Of a DNA stretch of 14,445 nucleotides, positions 1 to 12,165 are shown one piece after another. The notes beneath the pieces were generated by a model that saw only the letters and a program-made list of their open reading frames with translations, was not told the origin of the DNA and ran no database searches. The first letter of the stretch is position 1. Each line of letters opens with the position of its first letter. This DNA comes from a bacterium (GTDB lineage Bacteria > CSSED10-310 > JAJRTK01). The stretch spans positions 1 to 14,445 of the forward strand of contig JAJRTK010000180.1 of NCBI GenBank assembly GCA_024278345.1, given 5' to 3'. The position numbers and the translations under genes are program-made.

Positions 1-5
1 CCCGC

Positions 6-24
6 CGCCGGCAAGATGCCGGCG
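6..24. repeat. GC-rich inverted repeat at left edge
   Basis: The bases CGCCGGC and GCCGGCG form a perfect 7-bp stem around the loop AAGAT. A further GGCGGC at 35-40 could pair with GCCGCC at 4-9 as an alternative fold. It resembles REP-like palindromes scattered between genes in high-GC genomes. Only one copy is seen and it touches the window edge, so its full extent is unknown. Confidence 0.4.
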
Positions 25-145
25 CCACGCTTTCGGCGGCGATAGGTGTCAAGCAATCACGTGAGGATTTGATAGGTCCCGTTCCTTGCTCCCTACTGTC
101 GAAATCCGCGAATGATCAGGTTTTTGACTGGTGTTACGCTTTTGG

Positions 146-239
146 GGCAGTGGATCCGGCCCAGGGCCATGAAAGGCGAGTGGCGGCGGACGGACTGCCG
201 TCGCCGCGAGGGGAAGACAACCTAAAGAAAAGAAAGAAA
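146..239 (+). repeat. Dispersed structured repeat, copy A (short form)
   Basis: The copy begins with a GGCAG block and a C/G-rich stretch, then has the core GGCGAG (175-180). A near-perfect stem follows: GCGGCGGACGG at 183-193 and CCGTCGCCGC at 198-207, loop ACTG, with one bulged G. It continues with GAGGGGAAGACAACC and a purine tail of A and G to about 239. Copy B at 12071-12165, inverted, matches almost base for base through the core. Similarity to B seems to continue past the tail: both have GGTGCCCTTCAGGA shortly downstream (251-264 here). Confidence 0.8.
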
Positions 240-240
240 T

Positions 241-390
241 TTACTCAAATGGTGCCCTTCAGGATCCCCACCACCGGTTTTCTCGGGTCCTATCGACTTC
301 GGTGGTGCGGGGCCAGACAGAAGATCGCCGGAAGACTCTGGGCCAGTCCTCGAAGAACTCCTCACTTTGTTCTATATTGGGTTGAGTGGT
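241..390 (+). ncRNA. Candidate retron ncRNA (msr-msd) region, unproven
   Basis: Two hairpins stand in the expected place for a retron RNA, ahead of the kinase-RT operon. The first pairs CCCCACCACCG (266-276) with CGGTGGTGCGGGG (300-312), with a two-base bulge. The second pairs GGCCAGA (311-317) with TCTGGGCC (337-344). Outer segments TTACTCAA (241-248) and TTGAGTGG (382-389) can pair over 8 bases, two of them G-U, like a short a1/a2 duplex. Known retron RNAs have such an outer duplex, a branching guanosine and a long msd stem. I cannot pick a branching G, and neither stem is long, so this is a location hypothesis rather than a delineated RNA. Confidence 0.25.
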
Positions 391-463
391 GAGCGGTGGG
401 CAGTGAGCATGCGGTGAGTTGTTCGTAAGCGGTTATTAGCGGGCGGTGAGCGGCGGTGAACTG
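387..463. repeat. Degenerate GGTGAG-rich repeat stretch
   Basis: The short word GGTGAG and close variants (GGTGGG, AGTGAG, GGTGAA) recur about eight times in some 75 bases, often preceded by GC or GCG. Spacing is irregular, so this is not a clean tandem array. It lies in the leader between the hairpins and the kinase start and is not translated. It could be low-complexity sequence, a decayed tandem repeat or a set of protein-binding sites; the sequence does not decide. Confidence 0.4.
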
Positions 464-519
464 ATGTTTGCGTTTGCAGAGGCGTATCGGCTTTTGTTCG
501 GGAAATCGGGAAGGGGCGG

Positions 520-2700
520 ATGATGGAACAATTCAGAATGGGTAGAGCTCTCTTGAAGGCTGGTGTCCGCGGCGTAGGCGCGGCGATCCCCGGAGGAATT
601 TTTGTCGGGGCCTTGTTCGAAGAACTGGCATTGCCCTTTTGCAACGGAGCCTGGGACTGGTTGAAGGGCAAATCCACGGCTGAGCGGCAGGCCGCTCTCG
701 ATGAGCTTGCTCAACTGCCGGTTCCCGATGCTCGTCAGATTGCCGAAGCGGAATTGCCGGAAGAATTGTCGTCTATTCGTAGTCGGGAAGAAGTTCTGAG
801 CTATCTTTCCGTGGTACCCATGTCTGTTCGGCGAGCGGTGAGCCGTCCCGGCGACGGAGGGCAACCATCGGTCCTGGCCACCCAGTTGCCTGAAAGACCG
901 GAAGCCTTGATGGCGTTTCTTCCTCTTCGGCCCCCGCGCTTTGCTCCGGGAGATCCGGTGGCGGGCCACGACTTCGAGCTAGAAACACTCCTTGGGCAGG
1001 GCGGTTTTGGCGAGGTTTGGAAAGCGTGCCATATCCGGCGCCGCTCCGTTCCTCCCAGGGCGTTCAAGTTCTGTTTGGACCCAGTGCTGAGGTTCAGTTT
1101 GGAGCGGGAGCTCGACCTTGTGGATGAGCTCCGGCACGAAGGGATCGTGGAGCTTCTTGGAACCGCTTTGAGTGCCGATCCGCCCTTCCTGATGTACGAG
1201 CTTGTGGAGGGCGGCGATCTCGTGGGCTGGCTTCAGAACTTCGAGGGCCGGCTGCCGCCGGAGAAAGAGGTCCTGAAGATCTTGAGAATGACGGCGGAAG
1301 CCCTGGACTACACCCACCGGAAAGGGATTGTCCATCGAGATCTGAAACCCGCAAACCTGCTCGTGACTTCCGATGGCCGGATTAAGATCGCCGATTTCGG
1401 AATCGGCGCATTGTCGGCGGACGCGGAGCGGACGCGGTCGCCCAGCGAGGTCCTGACGCAACACTCGAAATTGCAGGGCGCCTGCACTCCGCTGTACGCC
1501 GATCCGACGCGGATCTATTCAACCCATGCCGACCCAAAGGTCGATATCTACGCTTTGGGTGTCATTGCCTACCAGCTCCTCATGGGCAACGTGACGCTGC
1601 CCATGCCACAGTATTGGCGGCAGGAGCTCGAGACCCGCCGAGTGTCGAGTGGCCTTTGCGATCTCGTTGCGGCTTGCGTGGAACACCCAACGAACCGCCT
1701 CGCGGACGCAGGGGCCTTTTTGGCACAACTGAAAAGGCTTCGTACGGAGGCGGGAGCTGCCAGCCGAACCGAAACCGCAAAGCCCGCTAGCAGCAAGAGG
1801 GCAGGGGAACAAATCCACTCAGCCACCAGAGAGAGGCGACAGAGCAGAGTTTCGTCCAAGTCCGTGGGCACTGGGAAGATCTCTCGCCGAAATCCGGAGC
1901 TCCAGATCTTGAAAAAGGCGTGCCTCGTGGATCGCGGACCTCGCAAGGTCGATCGCCGTCTTCGTGGGCGCGGTATCATTGAGAGCGCGGATATCATCGC
2001 CCACCTTTCCCACGTCACCGGAGCGAGCTTACAGGAAGCCGCCCGAGCCGTCGATGCGTTTTGGAATAATGTGGCACGTCTGGGTGACAAGCTGGAGAGA
2101 GGCCAAAAACACCTGGTGATCCCTCATTTCGGCACCTTCCGATTGGCACGGCGCCGGACGAGCAGAACCAGTCGAGGCCGAATCGTTCTCCAGTTCCGGT
2201 CGCGGACCCTGGCGGAGCTGAAAAGCAGAAGCGCCGGAGGCAGGACTCCCAGTGCCGACCAAGAACGCGAGGGGCTCCTGGGAATGTTTGATCGCCTCAT
2301 GGGCTCCGGTGGCAAGCGATCCGCCAGTGGAGTCACTGGAACTGTCCCCAGCGTGGGCGATCCCGTATGGGTCCAGAAAGTGAAATCCTCCTACCCCATC
2401 GTGGCGGTGATGGAAGGCCGTGAAGCGGCGTGGAACCAGTCGCGGTTCTCGGTTCGAAGAAGACTTGCCCTGGCCATGGCGGTGGATGCCGAGCTGCCTC
2501 TGGGGATGGCCGCTCGCCTTCTGGAAGCGCTCCTTCAGACGATGGCCAGGCTCTTTCTGCAAAACGTCCAAGGTATCCGTTGGGCGCGGCGCGGCTTCAT
2601 GCGACCGGTGAAAGTCCGCCGTCGGCGACGGGGAAAAAGGCAGTTCACCCACTATCGGTTCCAGTGTTACCGGGCTTTCTCCCGCCGCCTCAAGGACTGA
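520..2700 (+). CDS. Ser/Thr protein kinase fused to HU/IHF-like DNA-binding domains
   Basis: This 726-residue protein has a glycine-rich hydrophobic segment at 11-40, then a kinase at about 151-408. Visible kinase motifs are the P-loop GQGGFGEV (159-166), K183 in AFKF, probable alpha-C E197, HRDLKPAN (272-279) with catalytic D274, and DFG (292-294). YADPT (326-330) replaces the usual APE. The N-terminal 140 residues and the FKFCLDP segment recall planctomycete/verrucomicrobial kinases (memory, not searched). After a basic linker, 486-567 matches an HU/IHF fold, with the HFGTF turn at 536-540 and a basic arm. Residues 642-722 look like a second, degenerate HU-like unit. It phosphorylates Ser/Thr and should bind DNA or structured RNA/DNA. 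The start at 520 follows AAGGGGCGG; a second ATG lies at 523. The RT gene begins 12 bases after the stop, so the two are probably cotranscribed. A kinase-HU fusion beside an RT suggests a retron partner protein (inference). Kinase and first HU calls are firm, the second HU moderate. Confidence 0.9.
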   Translation: MMEQFRMGRALLKAGVRGVGAAIPGGIFVGALFEELALPFCNGAWDWLKGKSTAERQAALDELAQLPVPDARQIAEAELPEELSSIRSREEVLSYLSVVPMSVRRAVSRPGDGGQPSVLATQLPERPEALMAFLPLRPPRFAPGDPVAGHDFELETLLGQGGFGEVWKACHIRRRSVPPRAFKFCLDPVLRFSLERELDLVDELRHEGIVELLGTALSADPPFLMYELVEGGDLVGWLQNFEGRLPPEKEVLKILRMTAEALDYTHRKGIVHRDLKPANLLVTSDGRIKIADFGIGALSADAERTRSPSEVLTQHSKLQGACTPLYADPTRIYSTHADPKVDIYALGVIAYQLLMGNVTLPMPQYWRQELETRRVSSGLCDLVAACVEHPTNRLADAGAFLAQLKRLRTEAGAASRTETAKPASSKRAGEQIHSATRERRQSRVSSKSVGTGKISRRNPELQILKKACLVDRGPRKVDRRLRGRGIIESADIIAHLSHVTGASLQEAARAVDAFWNNVARLGDKLERGQKHLVIPHFGTFRLARRRTSRTSRGRIVLQFRSRTLAELKSRSAGGRTPSADQEREGLLGMFDRLMGSGGKRSASGVTGTVPSVGDPVWVQKVKSSYPIVAVMEGREAAWNQSRFSVRRRLALAMAVDAELPLGMAARLLEALLQTMARLFLQNVQGIRWARRGFMRPVKVRRRRRGKRQFTHYRFQCYRAFSRRLKD

Positions 2701-2712
2701 TGGGGGCTGGAG

Positions 2713-3585
2713 ATGATGGGCCGCCTTTGCGAAGTCGTGAAGCTGAACAGCGAAGCCATCAACGCCATGCTGGATCGGGTGGAAGAGCTTTACCTGCGCT
2801 TCCCCATTCCCAAGTCGCCCACGAAAAAGCGCTGGATTGAGGCGCCGGCTCCGGAGCTCAAGGAGCTCCAGCAGCGCCTTCTCAAGGGGCTGCTCTATCA
2901 GCTTCCCGCCCATCATGCCGCACACGGTTTTGTGCCAGGCCGCTCGATCTTGACCAACGCCCGAGTCCACGTCGGCCGCCGGTGGGTCATTGCCCTTGAT
3001 ATCCAGGAGTTCTTTCCCTCCACCCGGGCGGCGAAAATAGAGGAGATCGTTCGCGGGTTTGCGGGTCTTGATGATTGGGAACGCTCGGCCATCGTCCCAT
3101 TGGTGACGCTCCGCGGACGGTTGCCCCAGGGTGCTCCCACCAGTCCTCACCTGGCGAATTTGGCCTTTTTCCCCCTCGACGTGAAGCTGGTGGAATTGGC
3201 GAAAATCAGAGGATTCCGCTACACGAGATATGCTGACGATCTGACTTTTTCTGGCAACCGGTTCCCCACGGGATTGGTTGAGAACGTCAGCGAAATCCTG
3301 GAAAAAGGAGGGTACCGGCTGGCCAGGAAGAAAACGCGGATCATGGGCCAGGGCCGCCGCCAAAAGGTCACCGGCCTTGTGGTGAACGACAAGGTTCAGT
3401 TGCCCAGGGAGTTTCGGCGTTGGCTCCGTGCGATTCTTCACGACATCCGGCACCGAGGGCTTGACGCCGCTCTCAGTCGGACCCAGAACATGACGGAAGC
3501 TCGCCTGATCGGAACCCTGTCATTCCAGATGATGATCGACCCCGACGGGCTGGGCCGTCTCATCTCTTCTTCCGACGAATTCTAG
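2713..3585 (+). CDS. Retron-type reverse transcriptase
   Basis: The protein has 290 residues, close to the usual length of retron RTs. It shows the retron NAxxH motif as NARVH (82-86), motif A as ALDIQEFFPS (94-103) with D96, QGAPTSPHLAN (139-149), the catalytic YADD (173-176) in RYADDLTFSG, and the retron VTG triplet (219-221) before the thumb region. All catalytic aspartates are present, so it should be active. In known retrons this enzyme copies part of a partner RNA into msDNA primed from a guanosine 2'-OH. There are in-frame ATGs at 2713 and 2716; GGGGG at 2702-2706 spaces best with 2713. The 12-base gap to the kinase gene suggests translational coupling. No maturase, endonuclease or integrase domain is present, which argues against a group II intron. 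The RNA substrate is not identified; 241-519 is the best place to look. Confidence 0.9.
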   Translation: MMGRLCEVVKLNSEAINAMLDRVEELYLRFPIPKSPTKKRWIEAPAPELKELQQRLLKGLLYQLPAHHAAHGFVPGRSILTNARVHVGRRWVIALDIQEFFPSTRAAKIEEIVRGFAGLDDWERSAIVPLVTLRGRLPQGAPTSPHLANLAFFPLDVKLVELAKIRGFRYTRYADDLTFSGNRFPTGLVENVSEILEKGGYRLARKKTRIMGQGRRQKVTGLVVNDKVQLPREFRRWLRAILHDIRHRGLDAALSRTQNMTEARLIGTLSFQMMIDPDGLGRLISSSDEF

Positions 3586-3652
3586 AGCTTCTCCTCAACC
3601 GGTGCCGAGGTGTCCCAGGGACTCATTTTCTTGAAACAAGGTGCGGTGTAAC

Positions 3653-3735
3653 GGCTCTTCTTTTTTGGGGTTGGGTTCCGCTTCCATCGCTCACGGCCGT
3701 TCGCGCTGTTCGCCTCCGGCTTCCCCTTCTCCCGA
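3653..3735 (-). repeat. Dispersed structured repeat, copy E (degenerate)
   Basis: Read on the minus strand it goes GGCGAACAGCG, ACGGCCGT, then GAAGCGGAACCCAACC and an AAAAAAGAAGAG purine tail. This follows the same order as copies A and B, but the core stem is largely lost. It fills most of the 173-base gap between the RT gene and the next gene and is oriented opposite to both, as copies B and C are. The match is clear in the GCGGAACnCAACC block and the purine tail, weaker elsewhere. Confidence 0.55.
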
Positions 3736-3758
3736 AGTTTGGCAGGGAATTTTGCACT

Positions 3759-5597
3759 ATGGGTTTCCCCACCGAAGAAACCTGGCCTCCAGACAAGATG
3801 GAGCTCGACTTGGGCGGGCTTCGGATCGTCCCCATCGTCCATGGGCGACTGGAATTTGCTATCGAGGTGCGTCGGCAGATCTTCGAGTACCATCCCCAGG
3901 CCGTCGCGGTCGAGCTCCCGGAGACATTGTACGAACCGGTGATCCGGGCCGTGCGCAGGCTTCCTTTTATCTCTGTCGTCCACTATCAGACGGCCGGCGG
4001 TGACCCCGCCTATCTGCCGGTTGAGCCCTGCGACGGAGTGGTGGAAGCGATGCGGCTGGCCCTAGAAGCGGGCATGGAGCTGCGCCTTGTAGATCGCGAC
4101 GGCGATGGCATCGAAAATGTCATGGAATGGATTCCGGACCCCTATGCCATCAGCCGGATCGGCTCAGCGCAATACTGTCGCCGGTTACTGAGCTCCTACG
4201 GTAGCCGTCCGGTTCCTCCCGAGGACGAAGCGCGGGAAGAGACCATGGCCTACCATCTGGGGCAGCTCCAGAACCAATATGATCGGGTGCTGTTCGTCTG
4301 CGGTTTCGCCCATGTAGCGGGCGTCATCAAGGCGTTGCCCACCGCCGTGGCTCGGCCGCTGGGCCGCGTTCGCCGGGAACGGGTACTGGTTTCCGCCCTC
4401 CACCACGACTCCATCCGGGAGTGTCTGGCAGAACCGCCGTACCTCACCCGGGCCTACGAAGAGGCACGCCGGAGCAGCACCGTGCATCAGCTCGATCGGA
4501 TGCGGGAAGCCGTTTCTTTGGTGCAGGAGGCGACCAAGCAGCATCTTGAAAACTCCGGGGAAACGGTTTCACCGAAGATCATGAAGACTCTCTTCCGGTT
4601 TGCACGGAACTATGCCCTGGTGGAGGGCGGCCTTGCACCGGATCTCTACCAGCTTCTCGTGGCCGCCAAAGGTTGCGTCGATGACAATTTCGCCTATGAA
4701 GTGTGGGATTTGGCCACGAGCTACCACTACATCGAGTCTCCACCGACCTTACCGGTCATCCGCCTCGGCGTGGAGGATCTCTACAAGCATGCCCGCCACA
4801 TTCGCTTCCACCGAAAGCTCAAAAATCGCCGGATGGGGATGCTGCGGATGATCAAGAAAAGAAAGAGGGAAAAGAAACCCGGAGACTGGAAGAAGAAGTG
4901 GAAAGGCCTCTCCATCTGCTCCCACCCACCGGAGGACCTGGTCATCGAGGGGTACGGCGCTTTCTTGAGGAAAAAAGCCAAGGGGATCCTCAGCCAGGAG
5001 TACAGCCGTGTCGAACCCTTCCAAACCAGTCTGCTGGACGGCATCGACATGCGCGAAACCCTCCGGAATTGGCATGAACGGAAGATCTACGTTCGGGAGA
5101 ATCGGCCCGTCAGGGGCGAGGTCGGAGCTGTGGTGGTCATTTTCGATCCAGACGTTGGCGCCCATGAAAGCTATCCCTGGCGCATGACATGGCAGGGCGA
5201 GCACGAGCAGGAATCAGACATGGCGCTCTATGCAACCGAACCGGGCGACCAAGTGATCGGCCCTGGCATCTCCCGGTGCGAGTACGGCGGAATGGTGATG
5301 ACCTATCCGCCGGGGCGGATGTATTACGTGTGGGAAGACCCTTACCTTGCGGGCACTCACAATAAGGCGGAGCGACTCCTGCTGGCGGGCCTCGTTTACG
5401 CCCTGGATCGCATGGTGGTCTACGTTGCGGAAAAGCCACCCGGAAGCCGAATGCGGACCATCGCCGCCAGGCTGGACAAGAAGCTTCTGTATGTTCCCAG
5501 CGGCCAGCTTTCGCCTCTAACGCTCAAAAAAATCCGCGTTTTTCACGTCCTAGACGGTCACCACGTGAGGAGCTATGCGGGTGAGTTTATCTGGTGA
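3759..5597 (+). CDS. TraB/PrgY-like N-terminal domain with unassigned C-terminus
   Basis: This 612-residue protein has a first 200 residues that carry the scattered motifs of the TraB/PrgY/ChaN/TIKI superfamily. These are IVHG near the start (26-29), VAVELPE (49-55) with E52, AREETMAYHL (158-167) like the family's ERDxxMA, and FVCGFAHVAG (179-188) with H185, like the GxGHxxG motif. Known members include pheromone-shutdown proteins, haem-binding ChaN and metalloprotease-like TIKI, so the biochemical role is open. Residues 200-612 match nothing I recognise. They include a very basic stretch at about 349-383 and an acidic/aromatic part near 455-525. No signal peptide or membrane helix is evident, so it is probably cytoplasmic. 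The start at 3759 follows AGGGA about 11 bases upstream; the ATG at 3798 just before the domain is an alternative. The gap holding repeat E argues against it belonging to the kinase-RT operon. Confidence 0.75.
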   Translation: MGFPTEETWPPDKMELDLGGLRIVPIVHGRLEFAIEVRRQIFEYHPQAVAVELPETLYEPVIRAVRRLPFISVVHYQTAGGDPAYLPVEPCDGVVEAMRLALEAGMELRLVDRDGDGIENVMEWIPDPYAISRIGSAQYCRRLLSSYGSRPVPPEDEAREETMAYHLGQLQNQYDRVLFVCGFAHVAGVIKALPTAVARPLGRVRRERVLVSALHHDSIRECLAEPPYLTRAYEEARRSSTVHQLDRMREAVSLVQEATKQHLENSGETVSPKIMKTLFRFARNYALVEGGLAPDLYQLLVAAKGCVDDNFAYEVWDLATSYHYIESPPTLPVIRLGVEDLYKHARHIRFHRKLKNRRMGMLRMIKKRKREKKPGDWKKKWKGLSICSHPPEDLVIEGYGAFLRKKAKGILSQEYSRVEPFQTSLLDGIDMRETLRNWHERKIYVRENRPVRGEVGAVVVIFDPDVGAHESYPWRMTWQGEHEQESDMALYATEPGDQVIGPGISRCEYGGMVMTYPPGRMYYVWEDPYLAGTHNKAERLLLAGLVYALDRMVVYVAEKPPGSRMRTIAARLDKKLLYVPSGQLSPLTLKKIRVFHVLDGHHVRSYAGEFIW

Positions 5598-5631
5598 CCT
5601 GGGAGATCGGAGCATACCCTCAATAAACCGA

Positions 5632-5683
5632 GACAGCCAGCGACCGATTGCTCCGGCTGCCGGCTGTCCACCGCTTTAACTTT
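5632..5683. terminator. Probable bidirectional terminator between convergent genes
   Basis: GACAGCC (5632-5638) pairs with GGCTGTC (5662-5668) as a 7-bp stem around a partly self-pairing loop. On the plus strand a T-rich stretch (CTTTAACTTTT) follows; on the minus strand TCGGTTTATT follows. It sits between the stop of the TraB-like gene (5597) and the stop of the RRM gene (5696), where a shared terminator is expected. The stem is interrupted, so strength is uncertain. Confidence 0.5.
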
Positions 5684-5695
5684 TAACGTTGACGC

Positions 5696-6025
5696 CTACC
5701 AACGTTCTCGTCGGCGACCTCCCCCATAACCGCCGCCGCCACCGCCAGCGCCCCCACCACTACCGCGGCGGCGTGGAGCCTGCTCCGTGGCGAAATCGAC
5801 CCGAAGAGTCCGGCCATCTAGCTCCTGACCGTTCATCGAGTCGAGGGCGTCAGCGGCGGCTTCCTCTTCTACGAAGGTGACGAAACCGAATCCGCGCGAG
5901 CGACCCGTATCCCGATCCGTGATGACCTTGGCTTCGATAATCTCACCAAATTCACCAAATACCCTGCCCAGGGTGGTGTCGTCTGTCTTCCAGGCCAACC
6001 CACCGACAAATAGCTTCTTGGACAT
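5696..6025 (-). CDS. Small glycine-rich RRM RNA-binding protein
   Basis: This is a 109-residue protein with one RNA-recognition motif: RNP2 as KLFVGGL (4-10) and RNP1 as RGFGFVTF (44-51), with the expected spacing. A glycine-rich, arginine-capped tail follows from about 85. Bacterial proteins of this type bind single-stranded RNA in the cytoplasm; in cyanobacteria such Rbp proteins are often cold-induced. I start it at the ATG at 6025, where the RRM begins (MSKKLF), with GGAG about 13 bases upstream. The frame stays open to 6124, but that extension crosses an intrinsic terminator at 6088-6112 and has no domain resemblance. The upstream promoter, long structured leader and terminator suggest control by premature termination (inference). 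The gene faces away from hutU and converges on the TraB-like gene. Confidence 0.9.
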
Positions 6026-6087
6026 TCTGTTCACACTACTCCAATGAGCGCTTTTCAGCGCGAAACCCACCCCGCCGCACGAGGAGC

Positions 6088-6112
6088 AAAAAAAACCGGC
6101 TTTATGAGCCGG
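6088..6112 (-). terminator. Intrinsic terminator ahead of the RRM gene
   Basis: On the minus strand CCGGCT and AGCCGG form a 6-bp GC-rich stem with a 5-base loop (6096-6112), followed at once by eight T residues (6095-6088). This is a textbook Rho-independent terminator. It lies about 63 bases before the RRM start and about 220 bases after a predicted transcription start. It either ends a separate small RNA or acts as an attenuator for the RRM gene. Confidence 0.85.
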
Positions 6113-6335
6113 AAAGCTTTGCAAACCCGATTTCTCGATCCACTCGCATCGGCGCGGCTAACTCCATCATCCCACACCCGCGTGACTCACGCCGCCGAAA
6201 GAGACGACTCAAACCAGCAAACGCCGGCCCCAACCGCCCGTCAGGGCGAAAAGCGAGAACTCACCCGCTAGGGGGAAACCCCCAAAATGTGAAACAACGA
6301 CTCAAACCAAATTCGGCCCGGAGCCGAACCTAGCC
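6088..6335 (-). ncRNA. Structured RNA or attenuator leader upstream of the RRM gene
   Basis: A transcript starting near 6334 and ending at the terminator would be about 245 bases. It is rich in hairpins: TTCGGC/GCCGAA (6312-6328), GGGGG/CCCCC around TTT (6271-6283), GGGTGA/TCGCCC competing with CGCCC/GGGCG near 6236-6270, and CGTGA/TCACG near 6180-6191. The 13-base word ACGACTCAAACCA (plus strand) is repeated exactly at 6204-6216 and 6297-6309. No convincing open frame fills it. I checked by eye for hallmarks of tmRNA, RNase P RNA, SRP RNA, 6S RNA and the c-di-GMP riboswitch and found none. It may be a free-standing small RNA or a regulatory leader of the RRM gene. Confidence 0.6.
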
Positions 6336-6340
6336 CTCCC

Positions 6341-6370
6341 ATTAGAAACCAAAGAATGGGTGGATGTCAA
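6341..6370 (-). promoter_or_regulatory. Strong sigma70-type promoter for the RNA/RRM transcript
   Basis: On the minus strand there is a perfect -35 TTGACA (6370-6365), an 18-base spacer and the -10 TCTAAT (6346-6341, five of six consensus bases). Initiation would fall near the G at 6334-6335, directly before the first strong hairpin. It is the best promoter match I found in the window. Confidence 0.75.
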
Positions 6371-6742
6371 GAGCTAGTTGATCTTTTATTGTGAAAGGCG
6401 TACCTGCTTGGGAGGTGCGGATGCGGTAATGTAGAGTTATTTCGTTGTTTTCAATCCAGTTATTCTTGGACAACCTGTATCCAAAATGGTTGGATTTTTA
6501 CGGGAGGGTTGGTTCCGGTGGGGCAAGGCGTCGGCTAGACGGTGGATCGGGGCGAGCAGCGGCGGACGGAGGGGAACTCGCGCAGAAGGCGCGGGTCATG
6601 CCCATGAGAGCGGAACACAACCTGGAAAAAGAAAACGCCGACCCATAGACCGTCGTCTTTTGCACAATGGGAAGTTCGGGGATCTTGCGCGGAGAAACCG
6701 CGGGGTCCTCCACTGGACCTCTTTCCAGGAACGAGGTGAGCC
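6361..6742. other. Intergenic region upstream of urocanase
   Basis: This stretch separates the minus-strand RRM transcript from the plus-strand urocanase. Its left part (6370-6500) is clearly more AT-rich than its surroundings and probably holds the urocanase promoter. I found only weak hexamers (TTGGGA at 6408 and TAGAGT at 6432, 18 bases apart) and would not rely on them. The right part is taken up by repeat copy D. No protein gene is supported; open frames over the repeat have no family resemblance. Confidence 0.5.
6520..6637 (+). repeat. Dispersed structured repeat, copy D (long form)
   Basis: It starts with GGGGCA and has GGCGAG at 6551-6556 followed by the CAGCGGCGGACGG core. It then carries the extra hairpin of the long form: ACTCGCGC (6576-6583) pairs perfectly with GCGCGGGT (6589-6596, one G-T) around AGAAG. 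It ends with GCGGAACACAACC and a GAAAAAGAAAA tail. It matches copy C in layout, with stem changes that keep pairing, and lies in the leader of the urocanase gene. Confidence 0.75.
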
Positions 6743-8785: not shown

Positions 8786-8830
8786 AGTTTCGGTCCCGCG
8801 TCCCGTTTGGGGCGGAATTTTTGGAAAACT

Positions 8831-8946
8831 GTTTTTTCTTTGAGTTGTGGTCCCCTCGCGGCGGCACGACCCACGCCTACGGCGCGAGTTCCCCCCGTCC
8901 GCCGCCACTCGCCTTTTTAACTCCCCTGGATTGGAGCCTTTGCCCC
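8831..8946 (-). repeat. Dispersed structured repeat, copy C (long form), likely hutU terminator
   Basis: On the plus strand GCGGCGG (8858-8864) pairs perfectly with CCGCCGC (8899-8905), enclosing a second hairpin ACCCACGCC/GGCGCGAGT with loop TAC (8869-8889). TTTTT follows at 8914-8918. Read this way it is a GC-rich stem with a T-run shortly behind the hutU stop, as in an intrinsic terminator. On the minus strand it reads GGCGAG, core stem, extra hairpin, GGGGACCACAACTC and an AAAGAAAAAA tail, the same order as copies A, B and D. It fills the gap between hutU and the zinc-ribbon gene. Confidence 0.75.
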
Positions 8947-10712: not shown

Positions 10713-12050
10713 ATGCGCCGACAGATGACCCGTGGACAATTGGGAGCCGCTTTCTTCTGCTGGGCCACCGTGGCCGCGACTTTTCCGGCGCCGGCCAGTG
10801 CCGGCGATTGCCGGCTAGAGCAGGGACTCCAGGATGCCTACGCCACGGCCCGGAAATACTACCGCTGTTACGAGGAGCCAGGTTGCCCAAGCCGCCTGGA
10901 TCCCACCCAGATGTTTTGCATCTGGAACAAGGTGGCCACCTGGGAATGCCAGGGAAATCCCAACCTTGACGAGGCCTGGCGCGCCATGTCCGAGCTCCGG
11001 CTCGACTATGGGCTTGGCACCGATCCGTGTGGAGTGCCCGAGGCTCCGCCTCCCTCCATGACACCGGCACCCAAACCCGGCACGGCGACTCCGAAACCAC
11101 CGACACCACCGCCGAGTCGCGCCCCGGCGACTCCCAGACCTCCACACCCGAAGCCGGCCCCGCCCACAGCGGTTCGGCCCCAGCCATATCCAAGGCCAAC
11201 CCCTCTTCCAATACGGCCTGGACCTCCTCTGGAGCGGCCACCACGAGGTCCTGAAGAGCGCCCCCACCATCCCGGGAAAAAGGGGAAATTGATTCGCCTG
11301 TCCCACCGCACCGATCTTGAGCTCGTCTGGATTCCGGGAGGCCGTATCTGGCTTGGCTGCGCCGCCGGCGATACCCAGTGCCGTCCGGACGAGAAACCTC
11401 GTTACCGCAGGGAAATCAAAGGGTTTTGGATCGGGAGACTCGAAGTCACGCAGCGCCAGTGGAAGGCCGTGATGAAGCGACTTCCCTCTTCCGCACGCCG
11501 CTGCCCCCAATGCCCGGTGACCCACGTCTCCTGGAGCGAAGTGAAGCAATTCCTTCGAAAGGCGAGTCATGGCCTGCGTCTTCCTTCGGAGGCGGAATGG
11601 GAATACGCGGCCAGAGGCGGTCTGAACAAATCCCGCTACGGGCCGAACTCGAAGATTGCCTGGTGTTCCGGGAAAGGGGTTCGGGGCGCAAAGCGAGGTG
11701 GCCTGTTGATTCCGAACCCCTACGGTGTTTACGACATGCTGGGCAATGTCTGGGAATGGACCTCCGACTTTTACGGGATCTACGATAAAGGGTTCCGGCC
11801 CAAGGGGAAGGAGTTCTCGCACAGTCGCCAGAGGGTGATCCGGGGAGGGAGCTGGAAGACTCTACCCCGGATTTGCCGGGCTTCCCACCGGGAGAGTGCT
11901 TTGCCGGCAACGCGGAGAGGCGATCTTGGGTTCCGCGTGGCGAAGAGCAAGGGCAAGGGCAAGAAGAAAGAGAAATCCAGGGAGAAAGAAAAGCCTTGGA
12001 AAAAGTGGAAAAAAAAGCAGAAGACTGAAACCGGGTTGCGGGACTCCTGA
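10713..12050 (+). CDS. Exported formylglycine-generating-enzyme-like (SUMF1 fold) protein
   Basis: This is a 445-residue protein. A signal peptide (1-30, ending PAPASA) is followed by a small cysteine-rich domain (33-106, seven Cys). A proline-rich linker spans about 109-188 and an FGE-sulfatase domain about 200-410. Domain signatures are EVTQRQW (244-250), LPSEAEWEYAARGG (290-303), YDMLGNVWEW (340-349), IRGGSW (376-381) and GFRVA (406-410). True FGEs carry a pair of catalytic cysteines near the end that turn a sulfatase Cys into formylglycine. Here that segment reads RICRASHRES and has only one Cys, so catalysis is doubtful and a binding role is more likely. The tail 411-437 is extremely lysine-rich. 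The signal and the linker suggest a periplasmic or surface location, perhaps contacting cell-wall or nucleic-acid anions through the tail. No sulfatase gene is nearby. Confidence 0.88.
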   Translation: MRRQMTRGQLGAAFFCWATVAATFPAPASAGDCRLEQGLQDAYATARKYYRCYEEPGCPSRLDPTQMFCIWNKVATWECQGNPNLDEAWRAMSELRLDYGLGTDPCGVPEAPPPSMTPAPKPGTATPKPPTPPPSRAPATPRPPHPKPAPPTAVRPQPYPRPTPLPIRPGPPLERPPRGPEERPHHPGKKGKLIRLSHRTDLELVWIPGGRIWLGCAAGDTQCRPDEKPRYRREIKGFWIGRLEVTQRQWKAVMKRLPSSARRCPQCPVTHVSWSEVKQFLRKASHGLRLPSEAEWEYAARGGLNKSRYGPNSKIAWCSGKGVRGAKRGGLLIPNPYGVYDMLGNVWEWTSDFYGIYDKGFRPKGKEFSHSRQRVIRGGSWKTLPRICRASHRESALPATRRGDLGFRVAKSKGKGKKKEKSREKEKPWKKWKKKQKTETGLRDS

Positions 12051-12070
12051 AGGGCACCCTTGGGGATCAT

Positions 12071-12165
12071 TGCTTTCTCCTTCTAAGGTTGTGTTCCGCT
12101 CGCGGCGACGGCAATCCGTCCGCCGCCACTCGCCTTTTATCGCCCCGGGACAGAGTTGACTGCCC
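12071..12165 (-). repeat. Dispersed structured repeat, copy B (short form), possible terminator
   Basis: On the plus strand GCGGCGACGG (12102-12111), loop CAAT and CCGTCCGCCGC (12116-12126) form a strong stem with one bulged base. TTTT follows at 12134-12137, 21 bases behind the CDS end plus stem as in a weak intrinsic terminator for the FGE-like gene. On the minus strand it mirrors copy A almost base for base: GGCGAG, the stem, GCGGAACACAACC and a purine tail ending GGAGAAAGC. Confidence 0.8.

Follow-up and report, generated by a model that had tools for sequence, protein, structure and literature searches.

A type X retron candidate whose HU-type partner protein carries a fused Ser/Thr kinase

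Introduction

To our knowledge, no described class of retron effector is a protein kinase. The locus analysed here raises the question of whether one could be: a gene for a Ser/Thr kinase with an HU/IHF-like tail lies directly 5' of a gene for a retron-like reverse transcriptase (RT), in a stretch of 14,445 nucleotides (the window). In retrons that have been worked out, the complex of RT and msDNA controls the effector; filaments of Ec86 react when msDNA is methylated, and in Ec83 the degradation of msDNA sets PtuAB free (PMC12948488). We have asked which retron type the RT belongs to, where the two halves of its partner protein come from, how widely the arrangement occurs and which explanation of the locus is best supported.

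Results

Organization of the locus

The partner and RT genes share the plus strand and are separated by 12 bases (2701–2712; Table 1), a layout and spacing that are as first described. An ATG at 538 offers an alternative start for the partner gene. The window spans all of contig C102, which belongs to a draft genome of 6.06 Mb (550 contigs, 87.9% completeness); the seven closest comparison genomes are related to this genome at the phylum level only. GC and GC3 are uniform across the kinase, HU, RT and neighbouring genes.

Table 1. Features of the locus (positions in the window).
Feature	Positions	Strand	Evidence or detail
Weak msr-msd candidate	415–535	+	a1 415–424, TAAGC 426–430, a2 526–535
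Partner gene: N-terminal domain, Ser/Thr kinase and two HU/IHF-like units	520–2700	+	726 aa
N-terminal domain, residues 1–148	520–963	+	Common to two kinase–FGE paralogs of the source genome
Ser/Thr protein kinase domain, residues 153–361	976–1602	+	Pfam Pkinase, 2.2e-36
Type X partner tail, residues 399–725	1714–2694	+	PADLOC IHF-VHL_X, 3.4e-37, profile positions 22–242 of 305
HU/IHF-like unit 1, residues 489–551	1984–2172	+	Pfam PF00216, 5.4e-5 on the segment
HU-like unit 2, residues 641–725	2440–2694	+	IHF-VHL_X; predicted element order
Retron reverse transcriptase, type X by profile	2713–3585	+	290 aa; PADLOC RT_X, 6.4e-106
RT motifs	NAxxH 2956–2970; YADD 3229–3240; VTG 3367–3375	+	Sequence motifs

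Beyond the RT, after 173 bases, lies a 612-aa gene (3759–5597, plus strand) with no match in Pfam or PADLOC, which could be a third member of the locus or unrelated. The genes that follow are ordinary neighbours, namely an RRM protein gene (5699–6124, minus strand) and then, onward to 14119, urocanase, glyoxalase-like, FGE-sulfatase and ankyrin-repeat genes. A dispersed intergenic repeat of ~130 bases, forming a strong GC-rich hairpin, is present at 155–282 (plus strand), at 12027–12154 (minus strand) and in part at 8829–8863 (minus strand), flanking the locus on either side. It occupies at least 41 scored places in the source genome (402 first-look candidates, 40 scored).

The reverse transcriptase

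The RT has its motif residues in the correct order—NARVH at residue 82, QGAP at 139, an intact YADD at 173 and VTG at 219. In PADLOC the top model is RT_X (351.7 bits, with almost full coverage of the model), ahead of RT_XIII (254.4 bits). Pfam returns RVT_1 (1.6e-16), NCBIfam returns retron_St85_RT (2.3e-62, under that model's cut-off) and the nearest solved structure in the PDB is the retron Ec86 RT (6.3e-33). The best matches in PADLOC, NCBIfam and the PDB are all retron RTs, bearing out the preliminary description of the protein as a retron RT with NAxxH, YADD and VTG motifs; an origin from a group II intron is ruled out by the PADLOC and NCBIfam scores.

Judged by profile scores, the protein is a type X retron RT. 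The best types for 13 comparison retron RTs were XIII, II-A, III-A, XI, I-C or 'other', and type X for none (0/13). Across 386 sampled genomes the runner-up on RT_X reached 238.6, and RT_XIII was the better model for it. We base the type on profile scores because a tree of 16 sequences, which contains no second type X RT, draws the window RT on a long branch and does not resolve its placement. Retron identity, for which a tree had been suggested earlier as a check, stands by profiles and motifs. The type X label, joining RT_X to IHF-VHL_X, we take to refer to the classification of Mestre et al. 2020. PADLOC cites Mestre et al. 2020 (PMC9252829). No paper found in the literature searched uses the name 'type X retron'.

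Close relatives of the RT were scarce. Scanning genome contigs for homologues gave one distant RT (41%; 'RT_other' in PADLOC), and tblastn against plasmids and phages gave RTs of types XIII, III and I-C-like where typed, none above 41% among the matches listed. A separate observation concerns a 721-aa protein with two tandem retron-like RT domains, the first carrying YIDD, which occurs in two genomes of a single genus (L048, G134:C85; L050, G270:C386).

The HU/IHF-like tail of the partner

The C-terminal part of the partner matches IHF-VHL_X, the PADLOC model for the type X partner, from position 22 to position 242. The protein ends before the model does, so that positions 243–305 (63 positions) are absent. 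Each half of this region matches the model separately: residues 429–577 align to profile positions 78–153 (1.6e-19) and residues 578–726 to positions 172–242 (3.3e-15), and no other PADLOC model matches either piece. This separate matching is consistent with two HU-like units in the tail. For unit 1, Bac_DNA_binding is weak on the whole protein (2.7e-4), and the segment alone reaches 23.8 bits against a Pfam cut-off of 22.4; the top eight Foldseek matches are HU proteins, all with E above 0.1. For unit 2, searches gave no Pfam match and no HU among the fold matches, and the predicted order of elements, helix–helix–strand–strand–helix, is that of the HU fold. The single-sequence structure predictions were poor (mean pLDDT 41 and 62).

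The partner was previously described as a fusion of a Ser/Thr kinase with HU/IHF-like domains, and the strong Pkinase and IHF-VHL_X matches (Table 1) agree. It was also put forward as a new retron partner, which is right in part. Because the tail matches IHF-VHL_X, its HU-like portion is a catalogued type X component; the kinase falls outside the library model, which has 305 positions, with HU from about position 78, and no room for a kinase. By these profile comparisons, the new element is the fused kinase.

The kinase half and its resident paralogs

The catalytic residues of the kinase are intact: GQGGFGEV at 159–166, Lys183, HRDLKPAN at 272–279 and DFG at 292–294, with ADP at the APE position. 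Asp274, named earlier as the catalytic aspartate, sits within HRDLKPAN as proposed. The domain that precedes the kinase (residues 1–148) gave no match in Pfam or PADLOC.

The kinase has 107 matches within the source genome, which are headed by two resident paralogs (G000:C202 and G000:C275), scoring 510 and 423 bits; the next scores 95. In this genome search the two are 57% and 50% identical over partner residues 7–426 and 6–421, and in a second comparison 55% and 49% over residues 8–436 and 4–415, so that the homologous stretch comprises the ~430 N-terminal residues of the partner, N-terminal domain included. Both share the N-terminal domain and kinase of the locus protein; they continue into an FGE-sulfatase domain where the locus protein has its HU units, and lack HU. 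Homology begins at partner residues 4–8 and ends at 415–436, where the type X tail starts. The kinase half is therefore of separate origin from the tail, and the simplest reading of this boundary is that a resident module of N-terminal domain and kinase was joined onto a type X partner. Since the library partner model has no kinase, we infer that the retron gained the kinase and not the reverse. No RT gene was seen in the short stretches flanking the two kinase–FGE genes. More generally, Ser/Thr kinases abound in the source genome (L056 and L057 are examples), and two of them bear an FGE-sulfatase tail on the N-terminal–kinase module.

Against PADLOC, the kinase domain matches the defence kinases mad6 (5.5e-47), PD-T4-6 (1.1e-42) and PglW (6.5e-24). 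The likeness is that of the kinase fold, and these matches are no sign of a defence role because the resident kinase–FGE paralogs match nearly as well.

The search for further copies

Kinase–HU genes beside RTs were sought in other genomes, as the preliminary description had suggested, and the pairing did not recur: apart from the locus itself, ~1,170 genomes searched with the partner model contained no true copy and no match at E ≤ 1e-6. The genomes comprised 385 further members of the relatives sample, 195 from the phylum of G035, 294 Planctomycetota, 290 from the phylum of G274 and 14 from two small phyla; silence within any of these groups is not proven absence. The weaker IHF-VHL_X matches in other genomes (E ~1e-5 to 1e-3) were not type X partners. 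Most of those in the reference sample align to the HU portion of the model and most likely represent ordinary HU genes. Three matches in Planctomycetota and one in L023 fall on the non-HU part, in frames unlike HU or retron genes, and were set aside as chance. No HU tail was found in plasmids, phages or viral contigs. A type X retron is a rare kind of system, this being the sole copy of the partner against ~1,170 other genomes, and with a single copy and no relatives there is neither a conserved pairing nor covariation to draw upon.

A candidate msr-msd RNA

A retron msr-msd RNA gene is marked by a1/a2 repeats and a branching guanosine. Scanning 283–560 for an a1/a2 pair followed by AGC gave one match: TGAGTTGTTC (415–424), with GTAAGC next, and GAACAATTCA at 526–535. 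Of 300 shuffled sequences, 9 equalled it. Folded alone, 410–540 is closed by the a1/a2 stem with a z of −1.5, a stability reached by 15 of 200 shuffles. The RNA, if real, would overlap the start codon at 520; the alternative ATG at 538 lies just 3' of a2 and agrees with the onset of homology (residue 8) to the nearer paralog. By these measures, 415–535 is a weak msr-msd candidate and serves as a lead only.

Other placements fared no better. Rfam gave no family above threshold over 1–6500, the fold of 330–522 is no more stable than shuffles, and 3560–3800, 3' of the RT, holds neither an a1/a2 candidate nor a stable fold. The hairpin at 155–282 was rejected as an msr-msd, being a copy of the dispersed repeat. 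Short GAGCGGTGAGC-like direct repeats occur at 378–460, just 5' of the partner gene.

Discussion

The reading that we favour, with moderate confidence, is that of a type X retron in which fusion turned the HU-type partner into a kinase effector. An RNA encoded immediately 5' of the partner gene would be the template from which the RT produces msDNA, and the pair of HU-like units would attach to the RT–msDNA complex and keep the kinase inactive. Should a phage function then modify or degrade msDNA, the kinase would be released or switched on, and growth would cease once it phosphorylated a target in the host. The HU units would thus hold the partner on RT–msDNA with the kinase as output, a division of labour suggested by analogy with Ec86 and Ec83.

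Genes matching RT_X and IHF-VHL_X, lying 12 bases apart when the partner is otherwise unseen in ~1,170 genomes, argue for a type X retron, and the even composition across the genes and the intact kinase residues also count for the favoured reading. Fusion of the kinase to the retron's own partner argues for a functional link, short of proof. Against the favoured reading count the single copy, the weak msr-msd, the failure of the tree to place the RT, the missing 63 model positions, the occurrence of the kinase module outside retrons in the paralogs and the precedent of Retron-Sda1, in which a kinase acts without RT or ncRNA.

Comparison with known systems places the locus nearest to type X. 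Its RT scores best on RT_X, its tail on IHF-VHL_X 22–242 and the two genes adjoin; the locus departs from that type in a Ser/Thr kinase within ~430 additional N-terminal residues, a domain that the type X partner model lacks, and in having no counterpart to profile positions 243–305. With the type II-A retron Ec86 it shares a homologous RT, an effector gene 5' of the RT and, by the mechanism proposed here, effector control by RT–msDNA. The Ec86 effector is nucleoside deoxyribosyltransferase-like, whereas the locus has a kinase with an HU-like tail, and RT_II-A models reach at most 204 bits on the window RT. Retron-Sda1 likewise has a kinase gene adjoining a retron RT; it differs in that the kinase is HipA-like, accompanied by DUF3037 and a type III RT in separate genes, whereas the kinase of the locus is fused to the retron partner (PMC12548924).

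The strongest alternative holds that the HU–HU tail alone does the retron work of msDNA binding or regulation, with the kinase as an accessory for regulation or sensing, one that might report phage infection to the RT–HU complex, and not a toxic effector. The type X model, whose 305 positions include HU at 78–153 and no kinase, means that kinase-less type X systems are presumably functional, and the attachment of the same module to FGE-sulfatase tails, in a genome with 107 kinase matches, suggests that its role is one of general input or signalling. Yet the tail of the locus is missing positions 243–305, a non-HU part that might be the effector in reference systems, and the kinase active site has been preserved. 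We regard this alternative as unlikely.

Less probable still is that kinase–HU works on its own in signalling or defence and came to lie next to the RT of a retron, a situation known from Retron-Sda1, the RT here being solitary or decaying. The adjoining HipA-like kinase gene of that retron, with DUF3037, defended without RT or ncRNA (PMC12548924), and the window offers no clear msr-msd. However, the tail and the RT match the partner and RT models of one and the same retron type, the genes are close enough to form one likely transcript, and the RT is intact.

An assembly or contamination artefact, for which a fragmented and incomplete draft and a fusion seen once can be cited, is very improbable given 726 codons in one unbroken frame, paralogs too divergent (49–55% identical) for mistaken read joining, even GC and GC3 over kinase, HU, RT and neighbours, and the source genome's own dispersed repeat on both flanks.

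Returning to the type X retron with a kinase effector, a broader proposal, which we put forward tentatively as possible, is that such loci form a kinase-effector subtype, in which HU–HU would serve as an exchangeable RT–msDNA adaptor and the organism's own kinase would have been made a phage-triggered toxin by fusion. The literature searched, which did not include the type X source paper, yielded no protein kinase acting as a working retron effector. If functional, the protein kinase would be a new kind of retron effector, and if the fusion does act as one, kinase signalling would join the outputs controlled by msDNA. Type X is barely described, and a locus of just two genes, with YADD and D274 as evident sites to mutate, would open its mechanism to testing. 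The locus is also a clear case of possible effector gain, in which a resident module would have been joined to a pre-existing adaptor while related kinases remain in the genome.
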